Source of the DNA: Verrucomicrobiia bacterium Tous-C2TDCM
GTDB lineage: Bacteria > Verrucomicrobiota > Verrucomicrobiia > Verrucomicrobiales > DEV007
DNA length: 45,959 nt
Assembly: GCA_002288445.1 (NCBI GenBank)
Contig: NEUQ01000003.1
Coordinates: 1-45,959, forward strand
Direction of reading: 5' to 3'
In this document: one piece after another, positions 13,183-21,629 of the stretch
How positions within the stretch are numbered: position 1 is the first letter of the stretch
Layout of the letters: each line of letters starts with the position of its first letter
Notes under the pieces: model-generated
Told to the model about the DNA's origin: nothing
The model's input: the letters and a program-made list of their open reading frames with translations, nothing else
Database searches by the model: none
Program-made: the position numbers and the translations under genes

Positions 13183-14214
13183 ATGAAGCGGAACGCAGCC
13201 ATGCTTGTGGCTTGGATCCTTGCGTCGAGCCCAATCGATGCCGGGCAATTCGGAACCGGCTTTGCCATCAGTCCGAAAGGCTATCTGATCACGTGCCACC
13301 ATGTGGTGCGGGAGGCTGAACGCGTCGTCGTGCACGTCAAGGGTGGCTATCTTGAGGCCTCGATCGTCGCCCTCGATCCCCGCAATGATCTTGCCATTCT
13401 CAAAGTCGAGGCGTGGCCAGGACGTTTTCTCGGGCTCTCGCCGTCCTCGGAGGTGACCCACGCTTCCGAGGTGCTCGCGGCCGGCTTCCCCGACCCGAGC
13501 GTCCTTGGTATCAATCCGAAAATCTCCACCGGTATCGTCAATGCGCTCTCCGGAGTGCGCGACGACCCTCGCTACATCCAGATCTCGGCTCCGGTGCAAC
13601 CGGGGAACTCAGGCGGGCCGCTCCTTTCCTCATCAGGCCGCGTCGTCGGCGTCGTTGCCGCCGGCCTCAACTCGATCGACCGCATGGAAAACGGCGGTTA
13701 CCTGCCCCAAACGGTGAACTACGCGATCAAAACGGACCTGATATTCCCGCTTTTGAAATCCGTCTCTGTCTCGGTCCCGAAATGGGGCACCCGCACCAGT
13801 CCTGGTCCAAAGCAGATTGATCGTACTCTCGGTGCTATCGCGCTGATTGAAGGACTGAAGCGCGGGGAACGCATGTATGTCGCTTCGCGCCCCATCTTCC
13901 CGCCGCACGGCCATCCCTCAACCGTCCCAACCTCGCAGCCGACCATGCCCGCGGGTCCGTGGGTTTTTCCCGATTCTCACCGCCGTCCCCTGACCGAGTC
14001 GGAAGTCAGGACCCTCCCGCCGCATGGCCTCTGGCGCGCCCGAAACGAGATCTACCTCCGTCATGGTTTCATCTTTCCCACCGCGGAAGGGCAACGGTTC
14101 GCCTCCGAGTTCGGACCCGCCTATCAGCCGCGAATTACCTCCGCTGAGGCTCTGCAGCGGCAACTCACTCCAGTGGAGGTCGCGAATCTCCAGCGGATTG
14201 CCGAGCATGAGTGA
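13183..14214 (+). CDS. Trypsin-like (S1C/HtrA-like) serine protease with C-terminal YARHG domain
   Basis: GTGFAISPKGYLITCHHVV (His), DPRNDLAILKV (Asp), PVQPGNSGGPLLSSSGRVVGVV (Ser); C-terminal LWRARNEIYLRHGFIFPTAEGQRFASEFGPAYQP matches YARHG. Confidence 0.85.
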   Translation: MKRNAAMLVAWILASSPIDAGQFGTGFAISPKGYLITCHHVVREAERVVVHVKGGYLEASIVALDPRNDLAILKVEAWPGRFLGLSPSSEVTHASEVLAAGFPDPSVLGINPKISTGIVNALSGVRDDPRYIQISAPVQPGNSGGPLLSSSGRVVGVVAAGLNSIDRMENGGYLPQTVNYAIKTDLIFPLLKSVSVSVPKWGTRTSPGPKQIDRTLGAIALIEGLKRGERMYVASRPIFPPHGHPSTVPTSQPTMPAGPWVFPDSHRRPLTESEVRTLPPHGLWRARNEIYLRHGFIFPTAEGQRFASEFGPAYQPRITSAEALQRQLTPVEVANLQRIAEHE

Positions 14215-14274: not shown

Positions 14275-17200
14275 GTGGCCGACGATTTCCAACAGCACCG
14301 GCAACGCCGGAAGTTGCCTTCTCCACTCGGAATCTTCCGCTGGCTAGGCCGCTTTTTGGCGCGGTCGGCCATGATTGTGGCCGGACTCCTGCTCCTCGTC
14401 GTGGCCCTTGCCTCGGTTCTCTACCTCAACCGGGTGCGGCTGCTCAATCAGACCCTATCCCTGCTGGTCGAGCCCTTCCGCGTCTCTGTCGGAGAGATCG
14501 ACTTTTACCCCATCGGAATCATCCGCATCGAGGATCTGGAGCTCGCCCCGAAACAGAGCCCGCCCGGAACCCGGCTCGTCCTCATCCCCGAGACGATCAT
14601 CACCTACCGCGTTTCCGACTTGCGGGCGACGGGACGGCTCCAAGACATTACTCTCCGCCAAGCCGAGATCCGACTTGATGCGCGGCTCCGCGAGGCCCTT
14701 CGCGATCGCGAGATGCCAACGACGGAGGCAAAGACACCTTTTTACCTCTCCAGCCTCGGTCTTTTCACCGGCGCTCTTGTCGTCGAGCAAGGCCGCCTCA
14801 TCGTTTCATTACCCGACCTTCCCCGCCTCGAGGGAACCTGGGAGCTTGAAACCGGTCGCTTCGAGACCGATGCGGAGGGTTTCATCCGCGCCCCCTTCAC
14901 CCTCGCACTCTCGCGGATTTCGATCGGTGAAAAAGGAGAGGGCGGGAAGATTAAGACGCTCACCACCAAGGCCCGACTCACAGATGATCTTGAAACCTTG
15001 GAGATCGGTCCGATCCGCCTCGAAGGTCTCGATCTCAACGTCACTCCGGCGATGCTGGGCAAGGCGAAGATCGGAACGGGCCAGGGAGCCGACCCACCCC
15101 GATCATATCCTGACAAAACAGCCTATCCATCGGGACGCCTGCTTCGCTTCAGCGGAATCGAAGTGGTCGATGCGGCAATCGACCTGAGCGGCTTCGACGG
15201 TGCCGAGGGCCGGGCACGACTGCCCGACCTCGCTTTCGAGACGAACTTCACCCTCCCCGAGATCGTCCACGAGAGCGGGCGCTGGGACAGCAAGGGACCG
15301 ATCGCAATCGACCTGAGCAAGATCGAGGCCGGAGCCGGCGGCAAGCTGCCTTTCTTCTCGGCGACGAAACTGGAGCTGCGCGCGAAATCTCTCGCCGGCC
15401 TCGTCGAGGAACGGCGCATTGAATCGATCGCTCTCACCGACGCCGACCTGATCGCGAGTGACGAATCTTTCGCGCGTTTCCTACGTTCCCCCGGTGACCC
15501 CACTGATTCGCCTCAGTCCGCAGCGGCTGACATCTCCCGTCCTCGACCATGGACCCTCGATCATGTGAAGCTGGATTCCTGCGGTATTGTGGTCCGCGAG
15601 CTCTCGATCGGGGGCAAGAGAATTCCAGAAGTCACGGCTTCGCTCTCCGGCGAGTTGAATGATCTTCGCCTCGGCGGCGGCACGGGCTTCGCCTCGGAGG
15701 GACGGCAAACTCTGTTGATCGAGCAGCTCCGCCTGCGTCCTCCCGGAGCCTCGGACTCGACCGAGCCCCTCCTCCGTGTGGCACGCTCGGAGATCGCCCT
15801 GCGATGGCCCGATTTCCAGCGCGAAAATCGGATCGAGCGTCTCCATTTGCGGGGGCCCGAAATCGAATTCACCGATGCCGCCCTCGGCGAATGGCTGAAG
15901 GTGGCACCCTCTTCGCCGGAGGTGGTCCCTCCGGTAAACCGTCCGGTCTACCAGGTGGAACAGCTCGAGGCGACGGGCGGCCGCCTCGTCGCGGACTCTA
16001 GTTTCGCGACGGGTAGAGTCCCTAAGATCCGCGCGGATTTTTCCCTCGAGACCCTTGCGAAGACCGCTGGTAACCACGAGGCCCACCGCCTCCGCCTCGA
16101 GGACCTCTCGCTTCGCAACCACTTGCAAAAGACCCAATTCTTCGGCCCCCCGAGACCTCGTCCGCCCTTTCCGGAGGCGGCGCAGGCGTCTGTCGGCACC
16201 TCACTCGGCGAGGATGAGGTGATCCGTGTCGACGACATCGAAATCGATTTCACTGCCATCGGACTCCAGCGTAGCCACCGCATCGATCGGGTCAAGGTCG
16301 ACGGGGCCGTTCTCACGGTCGGTGATGGACTAAAATCGATCGCGCGGGTGGAGGAGGCGGCGAAGGTGGATCTCCCAGCGGCGGGAACGCCGTCCGCGAC
16401 CACGGAGCACCCGCGGCAGGCCGCCGCCGCCGGAGGCCGCATGATGCCCTCATGGACTCTCGGTGAGGTCGAACTGACCCGTAGCCGCGTCCATTTCGAA
16501 TCGCTCATTCCCCAGGCCGAGGGACTGCAATTCGCGATCGAAACCAGGCTCGAGGAGGTGCCTCTTTCCCTCGAGGGGATTCTCGCACAGGACAAACTGC
16601 AGAAGATCGAACTTGCCGGGATCGAGATCCGCGATCCCTATAACTCCTTCATAACCGTGGCGGAGCTGCCGACAATCTTCGTGGAGTTCTCGCTCGCCGG
16701 GCTCGCCCGGCAACGGATCGAAACAATCGACCTGATCGCCCCCTCCTTGCACGTTGGTCAGGGGCTTTTCTGGTGGGTCGATTACCAGCGAAAGTATCGA
16801 GCCCGGAACGAGGGCGCGAGCGTCGGGATCGACGCTGGGGTCGCCGCTGAAAAAAAACCGGACTGGGTCATTCGTAGGATCAATGCGACTGCTGGAAAGA
16901 TCATCATCTCACCTACCGGGGTCCCGGTTGGAGTGGTTCCCTTTCCCTTCAATGCGACAACGACGATGTCCGAAGGCAACATCGAGCTGAAACTCACCAT
17001 TCCCGATGAGGACCACGTCTACCGATTTCCTGACTACAAAGTCGAGCTCGAAGGGCTGACCGGAGACGTCCAATTCAACGTGCCGGTGAAGGATCTCGAT
17101 AACAACCTCGTCCAGACGTTCAAGCTGAAACGCGCCAAATGGCGGGACTACGATGCCGAAGATCTCTATGTCACCGTCACTTTCGATGCGGAAGGGATCT

Positions 17201-17799
17201 ATGGAAGATTCGGCGGGGCGGCCTACACGGGCTACTCCGAGGGTCAGTTCAATTTTTACCTAAACGATCCCGGGAAATGGGACGCATGGATAGCGGGGAC
17301 GAATCTCGACACGGGGCCGGTGACCAAGATCCTCGTGCCCGATTCCTTTCTCATGGACGGCAAGGTGTCGCTCAAGCTGATTTCAGAGGGGCGCGACAAG
17401 CAGGTCGGCGAGACCACCGGCGAATTCCGGACGACCACGCCGGGTTGGTTCGACATCACGAAGCTCGACCGTCTCCTCGAAAAACTGCCGTCCGAATGGA
17501 ACTCGCTCCAGAATAGCTTTGCCGAGCTGAGTCTGATCGCACTGAAACGATTTGATTATGACAAGGGCACCGGTAGCCTCTACTTTCTGAAGCGGGAAGG
17601 CTCGTTGAAGCTCCATTTTGCCGGAAAGGACGGCACGCGCGCGCTGAATCTGCAAGTCCACAAGGAACCAACCACACAGGATAACGCCGCGACAGGGTCG
17701 GAAAAGGGCGAAACGCCAGCGACGGACAAGCCGCTCCCCGAAGCGAGCGCCCGACCCGCCCGACCTGACCGCCTCGCGGGAGATCGCCCTCCGAGATGA
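14275..17799 (+). CDS. YdbH-like / AsmA-superfamily large inner-membrane-anchored periplasmic protein
   Basis: 1174 aa; single N-terminal TM (SAMIVAGLLLLVVALASVLYL), long beta-rich repeats, C-terminal LIALKRFDYDKGTGSLYFLKREGSLKLHFAGKDGTRALNLQVHKEP; followed by a YnbE/YdbL-like gene. GTG start at 14275. Confidence 0.7.
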   Translation: MADDFQQHRQRRKLPSPLGIFRWLGRFLARSAMIVAGLLLLVVALASVLYLNRVRLLNQTLSLLVEPFRVSVGEIDFYPIGIIRIEDLELAPKQSPPGTRLVLIPETIITYRVSDLRATGRLQDITLRQAEIRLDARLREALRDREMPTTEAKTPFYLSSLGLFTGALVVEQGRLIVSLPDLPRLEGTWELETGRFETDAEGFIRAPFTLALSRISIGEKGEGGKIKTLTTKARLTDDLETLEIGPIRLEGLDLNVTPAMLGKAKIGTGQGADPPRSYPDKTAYPSGRLLRFSGIEVVDAAIDLSGFDGAEGRARLPDLAFETNFTLPEIVHESGRWDSKGPIAIDLSKIEAGAGGKLPFFSATKLELRAKSLAGLVEERRIESIALTDADLIASDESFARFLRSPGDPTDSPQSAAADISRPRPWTLDHVKLDSCGIVVRELSIGGKRIPEVTASLSGELNDLRLGGGTGFASEGRQTLLIEQLRLRPPGASDSTEPLLRVARSEIALRWPDFQRENRIERLHLRGPEIEFTDAALGEWLKVAPSSPEVVPPVNRPVYQVEQLEATGGRLVADSSFATGRVPKIRADFSLETLAKTAGNHEAHRLRLEDLSLRNHLQKTQFFGPPRPRPPFPEAAQASVGTSLGEDEVIRVDDIEIDFTAIGLQRSHRIDRVKVDGAVLTVGDGLKSIARVEEAAKVDLPAAGTPSATTEHPRQAAAAGGRMMPSWTLGEVELTRSRVHFESLIPQAEGLQFAIETRLEEVPLSLEGILAQDKLQKIELAGIEIRDPYNSFITVAELPTIFVEFSLAGLARQRIETIDLIAPSLHVGQGLFWWVDYQRKYRARNEGASVGIDAGVAAEKKPDWVIRRINATAGKIIISPTGVPVGVVPFPFNATTTMSEGNIELKLTIPDEDHVYRFPDYKVELEGLTGDVQFNVPVKDLDNNLVQTFKLKRAKWRDYDAEDLYVTVTFDAEGIYGRFGGAAYTGYSEGQFNFYLNDPGKWDAWIAGTNLDTGPVTKILVPDSFLMDGKVSLKLISEGRDKQVGETTGEFRTTTPGWFDITKLDRLLEKLPSEWNSLQNSFAELSLIALKRFDYDKGTGSLYFLKREGSLKLHFAGKDGTRALNLQVHKEPTTQDNAATGSEKGETPATDKPLPEASARPARPDRLAGDRPPR

Positions 17800-18341
17800 G
17801 CACTCGCCCCAGCCTTCCCCCGATCTTTTTCTCCGGCCTCGCCATCGCGGTCTTTGGGGGAGCACTTGCTTCCTGCGTGAAACCATTCGAGGTGAACGTG
17901 AACACGCCCGCGCCAATCAAGGTCGACCTCAGCATGGACGTGAACGTCTACCAGCACGGACTCGTTGAGAAAAAAGAGGCCGCGAGCTCCGCCGGGTTCC
18001 GCGCGGCGATGGAAAGCCGCCGCGACCGCATGTCGGAAATCCAGGAATTGAAAAACAACCGGCTCATCGGAGAGGGGCGCAGCGGACTGCTTTCCATTCG
18101 CAACCTCCCCGCCGGGGATTACGGCGACTACGTCGAAAAGACGGTTGAAGAGGAGAATCAGGACCGCGAGGCCCTCATGCGCCAAGAAGCCGCCGAGAAG
18201 AGTGTCGAACTCGCGAAGGTGCGTGAAGAGCAATGGCACCACTGGCAGCGCAAATCGTTTCCTGGCGAATGGATTGAGGTCGCCGACGATGATGGAACCA
18301 CCTTCCGCTGGGAGCAGAAGCAGGGAGCAGCGGAGGAGTGA
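17796..18341 (+). CDS. YnbE-like lipoprotein fused to YdbL-like (DUF1318) domain
   Basis: Lipobox LASC then VKPFEVNVNTPAPIKVDLSMDVNVYQH (YnbE-like), followed by RRDRMSEIQELKNNRLIGEGRSGLLSI...EENQDREALMRQEAAEKSVELAKVREEQWHHWQRKSFPGEWIEVADDDGTTFRWEQK (DUF1318/YdbL-like). ATGA overlap with the preceding gene. Confidence 0.7.
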   Translation: MSTRPSLPPIFFSGLAIAVFGGALASCVKPFEVNVNTPAPIKVDLSMDVNVYQHGLVEKKEAASSAGFRAAMESRRDRMSEIQELKNNRLIGEGRSGLLSIRNLPAGDYGDYVEKTVEEENQDREALMRQEAAEKSVELAKVREEQWHHWQRKSFPGEWIEVADDDGTTFRWEQKQGAAEE

Positions 18342-18368: not shown

Positions 18369-21300
18369 CTACTGCCGGGGCACGGCGCGGATCGGCGCAG
18401 GGCCCGGTGCCGACGGCACCTCCTCTTCCCCGAGGAGTCCCTTGAGCAGATCGGTCACGACCGGGTCAAGCTTGAGACCCGTCGCTTCCTCGAGCGTTCC
18501 CGTGATCACCGCAGCGGCATTTTCCGATCCGACCAGTTCCCTAAGTCCCCCGAGGGACCCCGTCGAGGTTCCCAACACTTCTCCCAATCCCACGGCGGCG
18601 AACTCGACAGGAAAACGACGGATCTTCAAGACGGGGCGATCGAGCGGACCCGACCCTTCGACCTCGATGGATTTGTCCTTCAACCCGGTCGCGGCGGCGA
18701 GCGCGGGCTCCAGATCGGCGGTGGTGACAAAGGAAATCGTTTTCGAGCTGAGGTTCACATTTCCATTCGTGACGTAGCGCGAAGCAGAATGGCGCACGGT
18801 GAGATCACTGGTGACGAGCACTCCCGATTCAAGCAGGTAGCTACCTGAGACCACGCCACCGCCTTTGAAGCCGAAGGCCGGGACGACTTTGCCGATCATC
18901 TCCTGAACCGGGCCGATCGCGGGGAACGAGGCGATGTCTGCTTCCTCGATGCGAAGGTTTCCACCCCCGTTGAGGCTCGCGGTATCGGCGTTGCCGGTGC
19001 CGCGGAAGACCAGGCTGAGACGACCTTCCACCCCGCCGACTGTGCCACCGAACCACCCCCCGGCCTTTTTCAGGTCCATCCCGGTGATCTCGACGAGACC
19101 AGTGAAGGGCCGTTGATCGCGAATCAAATGGGTGGCCCCGTTGAAGTGAACCTGGCCTCCGAAGAGATCGCCGGCGGCGTCATTTGTCTCGAGCGCGCCT
19201 CGATCATACGAGAACTGCCCACGGAGGTCCGACAGGGGCAGTTCGCGCCCTTCATCAACGTAAACGAACCCACCTCGATGCTCGTATCGAATCTTGAGCT
19301 CGGCGTTGGCGGGGTCTCCGAGTGGCATCTCACCACTGATGCGGAGCGCGGGGGCGTCGGCGAGCCGGACCGACTTGAAGAAATCGGCCCGAGTCGGATC
19401 AATGGACGTGATCAGCGCGATGGGATCGATGGTCGACTGGAGGCTCTCGATACGCAGTTTCTGCTCGGCCATGTCGATCGCGAACTCCGCGGTGATCATG
19501 CCCTCGCCGTAGCCGACCTGCACGTTCGGAAACCGAAGTTCGCCGGTCTTGGGATCGACGCGGAAGGAGGCGGAAAGACTCTCGAAGCGGATCCCGCGCC
19601 AGTTGAGATCGGATCCCCCAACGGTTCCCTCGATCGTGGCGAGATCGGGCTCCTCGGCATCCATTTCGAAGGAAAGGTCGAGGAGCGGAGGCAACGAACC
19701 ACTCCCTTCGATCCCCAGCCATGGCTGCGCGGCTCGAAACCCGGAGAAGTCCAGGGAGGCCAGCAACGATGCCTTTTCACCGGAAGCAGGAGCGTCCGCG
19801 GAGGTGACGGGCGGAGAGGTGGATTTGTCAGGCAAACGCACGATACCGTCGAGATCGACCCGCAGACCACCGACCCGGGCGGTGAGCCGCTCGACAGTCA
19901 CAGCCGAGGCATCGGCGAAGATCTCGCCGTCAACTCCATTGATCTCGGCAAAGAGTTCACCTTTTTGAAAAAGCGTCACCTTGGAATCGCGCAGGGAAAA
20001 CTCCGCGGCACCCAACGCGTCCGTTTGGCTCGCGAGCGAGAGAAGATCGATATTGATCCCGAGTCCGGCCACCTTGATCGCTGGTCGCGCTTTGGTGGCG
20101 TCGTCGTAGAAGGTCACCTCATCCAGAACGACGCCGCGCGGAAACTCGTATCGCCACTTCCCATAATCGAGGGGGATGCCCCGCTCCTCAAGTCGGGCCG
20201 CGATCAGAGAGGTCAGCCCCTCCTCAAAGTCCCCGAATCTCGACCACGCATAGGCCGCCGCCCCACCCACCACCGTGAGCAACAGGACTGTGGATAAGAA
20301 AAAGACCGTGGCGAAAACCGTCCAGCAACCGGCTTTCTTTTTTGTCTCCGCGCCGACGGACACGACCTCAGCAACAGAGGCGCTTTCCGAGATCGAGAGG
20401 GCACTCCCGGTAACGAATGCAGGCCCGACCGGCTCCTCAGGATCGAGCGTCTTCGCCCCATCGTCCGACCTCACTTCTTCGACGGAATCCGGCTCGGCCG
20501 GAGCGGTCTCATCTTCTGGTTGCAGCGGCTTCAAGCCTCTCTCGACCGGCTCAATGGCGACGATCGCCTCTTCGGATCCCGTTGACTCGGCCCCCGATTC
20601 GGTGCGGGCGATGGGAATGGCCACGGCCGTTTCGACGCCCTGCATCTGTTGCGGTGCCACCGACTCTTCGCTGGCGGCGAGGCCCGAGTCGAATGAAACC
20701 TCGACGATCTCCTCTTGGTGAGCCTCCGCGAGTTCCGGCTCCGCCTGAGGACTTTGAGCTGTCGGGGACAAGAGTATCGGTGGAACATCGGACTCGGACT
20801 CGGACTCGGACTCGGACTCGGACTCGAATCGAAGAGCCGCCTCCGGCTTCGACTCGCCCTTCTTCGGGAGATCCGGGATGTCGAAAACGATCTCCTCCAC
20901 CGTCTCCACCGTCTCCACCGTCTCCACCGTCTCCACCGTCTCCACCGTCTCCACCGTCTCCACCGTCTCCACCGTCTCCACCGTCTCCACCGTCTCCACC
21001 GTCTCAATGGTCAAAGGATCTTCGCCACCTACCGGAGTTTCTTCGGCTGGGGCAGCATCGATGCCATCGAAAAAATCGTCGAGTCCTCCGCCAGCCTTCT
21101 CCAATGCTTCGCGGCGCTGGCGTTTCACAGAACTTGCAGCCAACTCAAAGTCCGAGATCGGATCCTCGACCGTGAGGGAGAGGTCGGCTTCCTCCTCGAC
21201 CTCAACCAACTTGGAGAAATCGGACACCTCGCCAATCCCGTAACTTTTCGCCGGCAGGGGCAAATCGCCCATTTCCGTCAAGGCCTCTCTCGGGTCAGTT

Positions 21301-21575
21301 CTGGCAATCGGCAGGGAAAGATCCTCCTGATCAAGGTGCGGCAGCGGCTTCTTGCGCCGAGGGGCTTCGAACTCAATCCCATCCTCAAGACGACGATTGC
21401 CGGACTTCGATTTTTCGGCGGTGAAAGGCTCGTCCCACCATTTCGGAAGGGGATCGATCTCCTCTCCCTCGATCGGTCCGAGCGCGAGTTCCTCCCCTGC
21501 CGAGATTCCGGGAATGTCCGTGGTGGTCTCGGCCGCCTCATCCGCGCCTTCGTTACCGCTTGCTTTTTCGCTCAT
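18369..21575 (-). CDS. AsmA-like protein with acidic low-complexity cytoplasmic N-terminal region
   Basis: Starts MSEKASGNEGADEAAE; low-complexity region with (ES)n and (TVE)n; TM CWTVFATVFFLSTVLLLTVVGGAAAYAW; C-terminal AsmA-like repeats ending in GPLDRPVLKIRRFP. Confidence 0.7.
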   Translation of the reverse strand: MSEKASGNEGADEAAETTTDIPGISAGEELALGPIEGEEIDPLPKWWDEPFTAEKSKSGNRRLEDGIEFEAPRRKKPLPHLDQEDLSLPIARTDPREALTEMGDLPLPAKSYGIGEVSDFSKLVEVEEEADLSLTVEDPISDFELAASSVKRQRREALEKAGGGLDDFFDGIDAAPAEETPVGGEDPLTIETVETVETVETVETVETVETVETVETVETVETVETVEEIVFDIPDLPKKGESKPEAALRFESESESESESESDVPPILLSPTAQSPQAEPELAEAHQEEIVEVSFDSGLAASEESVAPQQMQGVETAVAIPIARTESGAESTGSEEAIVAIEPVERGLKPLQPEDETAPAEPDSVEEVRSDDGAKTLDPEEPVGPAFVTGSALSISESASVAEVVSVGAETKKKAGCWTVFATVFFLSTVLLLTVVGGAAAYAWSRFGDFEEGLTSLIAARLEERGIPLDYGKWRYEFPRGVVLDEVTFYDDATKARPAIKVAGLGINIDLLSLASQTDALGAAEFSLRDSKVTLFQKGELFAEINGVDGEIFADASAVTVERLTARVGGLRVDLDGIVRLPDKSTSPPVTSADAPASGEKASLLASLDFSGFRAAQPWLGIEGSGSLPPLLDLSFEMDAEEPDLATIEGTVGGSDLNWRGIRFESLSASFRVDPKTGELRFPNVQVGYGEGMITAEFAIDMAEQKLRIESLQSTIDPIALITSIDPTRADFFKSVRLADAPALRISGEMPLGDPANAELKIRYEHRGGFVYVDEGRELPLSDLRGQFSYDRGALETNDAAGDLFGGQVHFNGATHLIRDQRPFTGLVEITGMDLKKAGGWFGGTVGGVEGRLSLVFRGTGNADTASLNGGGNLRIEEADIASFPAIGPVQEMIGKVVPAFGFKGGGVVSGSYLLESGVLVTSDLTVRHSASRYVTNGNVNLSSKTISFVTTADLEPALAAATGLKDKSIEVEGSGPLDRPVLKIRRFPVEFAAVGLGEVLGTSTGSLGGLRELVGSENAAAVITGTLEEATGLKLDPVVTDLLKGLLGEEEVPSAPGPAPIRAVPRQ
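20791..20826 (-). repeat. 6-bp microsatellite (gactcg)x6 encoding ESESES
   Basis: Read directly: gactcg repeated 6 times, in frame with the 18369-21575 CDS. Confidence 0.9.
20902..21000 (-). repeat. 9-bp minisatellite (gtctccacc)x11 encoding (VET)n
   Basis: Eleven perfect copies of gtctccacc; the minus-strand translation is TVETVETVE... Confidence 0.95.
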
Positions 21576-21629
21576 GACTCTGCAAAACTCTTCCCGAACC
21601 CGGAAACTCCTCAACTTCAACCTTTCCCA

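Follow-up and report, generated by a model that had tools for sequence, protein, structure and literature searches.

How an AsmA-like bridge makes contact with the outer membrane, and how stacking of its YnbE anchor is limited, are the questions raised by two adjoining genes in the window, by which we mean the whole stretch of 45,959 nucleotides analyzed here (one contig, NEUQ01000003.1, of the incomplete genome of Verrucomicrobiia bacterium Tous-C2TDCM, which is 54% complete). In E. coli the corresponding parts are encoded by ydbH, ynbE and ydbL: YnbE reportedly extends the groove of YdbH by strand addition, and YdbL is said to prevent runaway YnbE multimers, both points being attributed to Kumar, Davis and Ruiz in PNAS in 2024. 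In the window, a gene for a YdbH-like protein is followed by a gene for a lipoprotein that joins a YnbE-like segment to a YdbL domain. We propose, with a probability of roughly 0.72, that this gene pair specifies an intermembrane lipid bridge of the YdbH type, the outer-membrane end of which would be a single fused lipoprotein carrying YdbL in cis. PMC11784454 and PMC12977461 cite Kumar, Davis and Ruiz 2024 for the YdbH-YnbE intermembrane bridge with YdbL.

The lipoprotein and its YnbE-like N-terminus

An original prediction, made from the letters of this stretch, had given the two open reading frames (ORFs), their lengths of 1174 and 181 amino acids (aa), the ATGA overlap between them and the mature lipoprotein N-terminus C-VKPFEVNVNTPAPIKVDLSMDVNVYQH. 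All of these agree with the sequence, and the central claim of the prediction, that a YnbE-type strand and YdbL form one polypeptide beside a YdbH-like protein, holds. The 4-base overlap recurs in several relatives, and others have spacings of -1 to tens of bases; in the named loci the AsmA-like gene lies directly upstream of the lipoprotein gene, in most of them at a distance between a 4-base overlap and some tens of bases. Purifying selection acts on the lipoprotein reading frame both before and after the join. Because of this, and because the fusion is found in dozens of independent genomes, we rejected an artefact of sequencing or assembly.

The C-terminal part of the lipoprotein is a YdbL domain, as had been predicted. 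Residues 78–164 match DUF1318 (PF07027) in Pfam with 38.1 bits and an E-value of 2.3e-9 (cut-off 27). In an AlphaFold2 (AF2) model, built as a single chain from 52 homologues, this region is confident, with a predicted local distance difference test score (pLDDT) of about 97. Foldseek gives one significant neighbour of the model in the PDB, the E. coli YdbL crystal structure 28OJ (22% identity, E 3.4e-4, TM-score 0.85 over the target), and the family profile retrieves this entry by sequence, too (E 1.3e-4). YdbL is here the C-terminal domain of a lipoprotein, not a soluble periplasmic protein with a cleavable signal peptide of its own.

The N-terminal part has the layout of YnbE, i.e. a lipobox, a short tether and a single alternating strand. 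The lipobox, ALAS-C27, is followed by VKPFEVNVNTPAPIKVDLSMDVNVYQH; residue +2 after the cysteine is Val, not Asp, and by the E. coli +2 rule the lipoprotein is expected to be sorted to the outer membrane. A tether of 12 residues leads to the strand, which has the motif TPxPIKVDLxMDVxVYQH. Hydrophobic and polar residues alternate from T37 to Q53 (p 0.003), and conservation in this segment equals that at the beginning of the DUF1318 core (entropy 0.96 vs 0.97 bits). The ratio of non-synonymous to synonymous polymorphism (pN/pS) is 0.074 for T37-H54, as compared to 0.26 for DUF1318, 0.47 for the linker and 0.88 for the signal peptide, making strand 37–54 the most constrained segment of the lipoprotein. 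The monomer model shows it as unpaired coil (pLDDT 66–70), which would suit a strand dependent on a partner.

As many other Verrucomicrobiota have the locus as three genes, the link to YnbE was drawn via custom profiles, a shared motif and gene order. In hhalign comparisons with E. coli YnbE, the fused N-terminus scored above 100 of 100 shuffled profiles, although its absolute scores were low. A custom YnbE profile was built from split-locus YnbE and E. coli YnbE; a YnbE profile match falls on the fused protein of genome G078, at its N-terminus (E 0.036). With the custom profile, no convincing match to a separate YnbE was found in complete fused genomes (e.g. G182, G187, G072), and values of 1e-17 to 1e-28 were obtained in split genomes. 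The fused gene itself fills the YnbE position directly after YdbH, the place of the small lipoprotein in split loci. Taken with the lipobox, the alternating strand and the gene order, these comparisons, weak in their absolute scores, support the view that the N-terminal part of the lipoprotein is YnbE-like.

The partner protein and the relatives of the locus

For the AsmA-like protein, AF2 predicts an N-terminal helix (residues 17–51) followed by repeated beta-sheet up to residue 1128, with moderate confidence (single chain, mean pLDDT 74.7). The nearest fold in the PDB is LPD-3 (E 2.1e-17), and TamAB is listed weakly; an N-terminal membrane helix and a repeated beta-groove, as in bridge-like proteins, are thus both predicted. 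Nearly all invariant alignment columns lie in the C-terminal half, and the last strand, residues 1120–1128, would be the expected docking edge for the strand of the lipoprotein. The profile of the family matches split-locus verrucomicrobial YdbH collinearly at the C-terminus (E 4.3e-7, probability 93%). One of the YdbH proteins compared, from locus L129, clearly belongs to PF11739 (109 bits). Judging from these profiles and the predicted fold, the partner is YdbH-like. Its groove fold resembles that of the eukaryotic bridge-like lipid-transfer proteins LPD-3 and Atg2 in structure comparison, but the latter lack recognisable sequence similarity and work with different membranes and different anchors.

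Within the order of the window, the lipoprotein was matched in 83 of 192 genomes and the AsmA-like gene in 81. In 80 of these 83 the form is fused, i.e. the match starts at or before residue 27 and includes the anchor strand; L243 and L244 are split, and L246 is a lone fragment. L245 carries a fused copy with a longer linker. The named relatives are all Verrucomicrobiota and comprise Verrucomicrobiales metagenome-assembled genomes (MAGs), Verrucomicrobium, Phragmitibacter, Methylacidiphilales and Methylacidiphilum; DUF1318 occurs in 59 of 146 genomes in a sample of the phylum. The original prediction had covered one locus, and this survey found its architecture to be widespread and recurrent.

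As compared to ydbH-ynbE-ydbL of E. coli, the window shares the gene order, the overlap of bridge and lipoprotein genes, an inner-membrane-anchored beta-groove protein (here predicted), an outer-membrane lipoprotein strand and the YdbL fold. It differs in that YnbE and YdbL are one protein from which the acidic YnbE tail is lost, and in that the bridge protein has 1174 aa, as opposed to 879 aa of E. coli YdbH, and falls below the PF11739 model. Many other Verrucomicrobiota (e.g. loci L129, L172, L178, L243) have the same parts in the same order but as three genes, encoding YdbH, a small YnbE lipoprotein with the motif KPIHITVDVNVKVD and the acidic tail DDFFGDLD, and a secreted DUF1318 protein with a signal peptide of its own but without a lipobox. 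PF11739 recognises the L129 YdbH but not the window protein. A second fused type (L131, L134, L138, L141, L165, L167, L170, L175, L180), found in other Verrucomicrobiota families that also hold split loci, likewise has a lipoprotein with YnbE strand and DUF1318 beside YdbH, but its strand motif is KPIQITxDVNLKVDxEL, its partner is of the PF11739 type and its position in trees is separate. This partner aligns over its whole length with split-locus YdbH (E 2e-86).

The DUF1318 tree requires four changes between fused and split forms, and the approximately unbiased test does not reject one clade for all fused forms (p-AU 0.066; short alignment). With the longer YdbH C-terminal alignment, which comprises the second fused type and split loci (PF11739-type), has some long rows and tests a group defined by the trait, the test does reject a single clade (p-AU 0.008), and two changes are forced. 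Therefore, fusion and/or fission occurred at least twice in the phylum, and either direction is possible.

Some lineages, including Methylacidiphilum relatives and family f6, have a neighbouring ORF of only about 480–670 aa beside the fused or split lipoprotein gene (L174, L176, L181, L234-L236, L239, L240 and f6 loci such as L172 and L178), and the bridge there would therefore be short or split over two genes. Genomes G132, G042, G054 and G072 carry 2–3 DUF1318 genes each; hence, more than one such bridge may operate in some lineages. Locus L225, from a MAG labelled Akkermansia muciniphila, has the fused gene and sits within the fused Verrucomicrobiales clade; the label is probably wrong.

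Proposed bridge and alternative explanations

In the proposed mechanism, the AsmA-like protein would be anchored in the inner membrane and span the periplasm with its predicted hydrophobic beta-groove, transporting lipids as presumed from E. coli YdbH. The lipoprotein would carry its lipid on Cys27 and stay in the outer membrane. Strand 37–54, about 12 residues from the lipid, may then pair with the final strand of the groove, thereby extending the groove, following the model for E. coli YnbE. The covalent YdbL domain beside the strand could act in cis, so that every anchor strand would come with its own chaperone. As YdbL is covalently attached to the strand, there would be one YdbL per strand, tied to the membrane, which may limit strand-on-strand stacking of the anchor at the outer membrane. 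The original prediction had named such consequences, i.e. a fixed stoichiometry, YdbL tethered to the outer membrane and a changed control of YnbE self-stacking, and they would follow logically from the fusion. The domain would be either a chaperone or else a permanent cap. A stricter version, in which the outer-membrane anchor never multimerises and the bridge ends in one strand and one YdbL, the latter being a structural end-piece and not a dissociable chaperone, is conceivable but doubtful.

Several results weigh against this interpretation. The curated model PF13617 (YnbE, Lipoprotein_19) has no Pfam match in the window lipoprotein, NCBIfam gave no YnbE match either, and the model matched 0 of 146 phylum genomes; formal membership in YnbE fails because this model does not detect the segment. 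The absolute hhalign scores of the short fused N-terminus are low (probability 14–42%), and the acidic C-terminal helix of YnbE, DDFFGDLD, is absent from the fused form. For the 1174-aa protein, no Pfam or NCBIfam match was obtained, PF11739 (YdbH) included, and its profile reached no significance with E. coli YdbH alone (hhalign, E 0.13), the best alignment falling in the same C-terminal region as with the verrucomicrobial proteins; the comparison was therefore made via verrucomicrobial YdbH. Neither the YnbE nor the YdbH label is backed by its curated family. YnbE identity stands on lipobox, motif, custom profiles and split three-gene relatives, and the YdbH-like label on the match to verrucomicrobial YdbH and the bridge-like predicted fold. 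Both labels need caution because they are based on profiles built here.

The missing PF13617 match and the absolute profile scores, low because the segment is short, would also suit an N-terminal segment that is a mere lipid tether, moving YdbL to the outer membrane and being no counterpart of YnbE, with something else extending the bridge. However, a tether is expected to be variable, yet the pN/pS of the strand is below that of the DUF1318 domain. Moreover, the strand alternates like one that extends a groove, and the segment fills the place that a separate YnbE has in split loci; the search of complete fused genomes found no YnbE of this kind. We consider this explanation unlikely and rejected it as the main one, the strand being the most constrained segment. 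A shade less probable is that the fusion undergoes cleavage in the periplasm, yielding YnbE and YdbL as two proteins like those of E. coli, and merely equalises their production. The variable linker would be in line with cleavage, and so would the secreted trypsin-like protease, the gene for which stops 60 bases ahead of the AsmA-like gene and has stayed there in 14 relatives. The linker shows no conserved cleavage motif, however, and the protease gene was found beside closer relatives only, whereas the fusion reaches much further. Very improbable, finally, is a separate export or assembly machine with TamB-like function in place of a lipid bridge. AsmA-like proteins do include TamB, which contributes to the assembly of outer-membrane proteins (PMC11341756, PMC12800296), and TamAB appeared, weakly, in the structure comparison; against this, the sequence relatives of the bridge protein are YdbH proteins, and its accessory domain, YdbL, is part of the YdbH operon.

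Neighbouring genes and significance

The table collects the features of the locus and its flanks. The secreted trypsin-like protease is retained at its position in 14 relatives and may have a part in the cluster, e.g. in quality control of the bridge. The convergent 1083-aa ORF on the other side resembles AsmA-like proteins beyond an internal membrane segment and has no Pfam match; among the named loci compared, it is conserved only beside L182. Its tandem repeats are a candidate length-variable tract.

Table. Positions of the bridge and lipoprotein genes, their domains and the flanking features in the window
Feature	Position	Strand	Basis or remark
Secreted trypsin-like protease, C-terminal YARHG domain	13183-14214	+	ends 60 bases before AsmA-like gene
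YdbH-like (AsmA-like) protein gene	14275..17799	+	ORF, GTG start, 1174 aa
N-terminal helix, residues 17-51, predicted inner-membrane anchor	14323..14427	+	AF2 secondary structure; hydrophobic sequence
Conserved C-terminal half, residues 700-1130	16372..17664	+	alignment; match region across order; AF2 strands
ATGA stop/start overlap of AsmA-like and lipoprotein genes	17796..17799	+	sequence
Fused YnbE-like/YdbL lipoprotein gene	17796..18341	+	ORF, ATG start, 181 aa; Pfam; family in order
Lipoprotein signal peptide, residues 1-26, variable	17796..17873	+	sequence; pN/pS 0.88; helix in model
Cys27, lipidation site (predicted)	17874..17876	+	invariant in 52 sequences
YnbE-like amphipathic strand, residues 37-54, TPAPIKVDLSMDVNVYQH	17904..17957	+	alternation, entropy, pN/pS, hhalign
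Variable linker, residues 55-75	17958..18020	+	entropy about 2.4 bits; pN/pS 0.47
DUF1318/YdbL domain, residues 78-164	18027..18287	+	Pfam match, fold, sequence profile
Convergent 1083-aa ORF	18369-21620	-	stop 28 bases from lipoprotein stop
Tandem repeat in 1083-aa ORF, 6 bases x 6.5 copies	20788-20826		100% identical
Tandem repeat in 1083-aa ORF, 9 bases x 12.3 copies, Val-Glu-Thr	20895-21005		100% identical

In the open-access literature searched, we found neither a description of a YnbE-YdbL fusion nor work on the YdbH-YnbE-YdbL system in Verrucomicrobiota. The system reaches beyond the curated YnbE and YdbH profiles. As a natural and recurrent fusion, the lipoprotein offers independent evolutionary evidence suggesting a direct action of YdbL on the YnbE strand, and structural and genetic tests could use it as a ready-made one-to-one construct.

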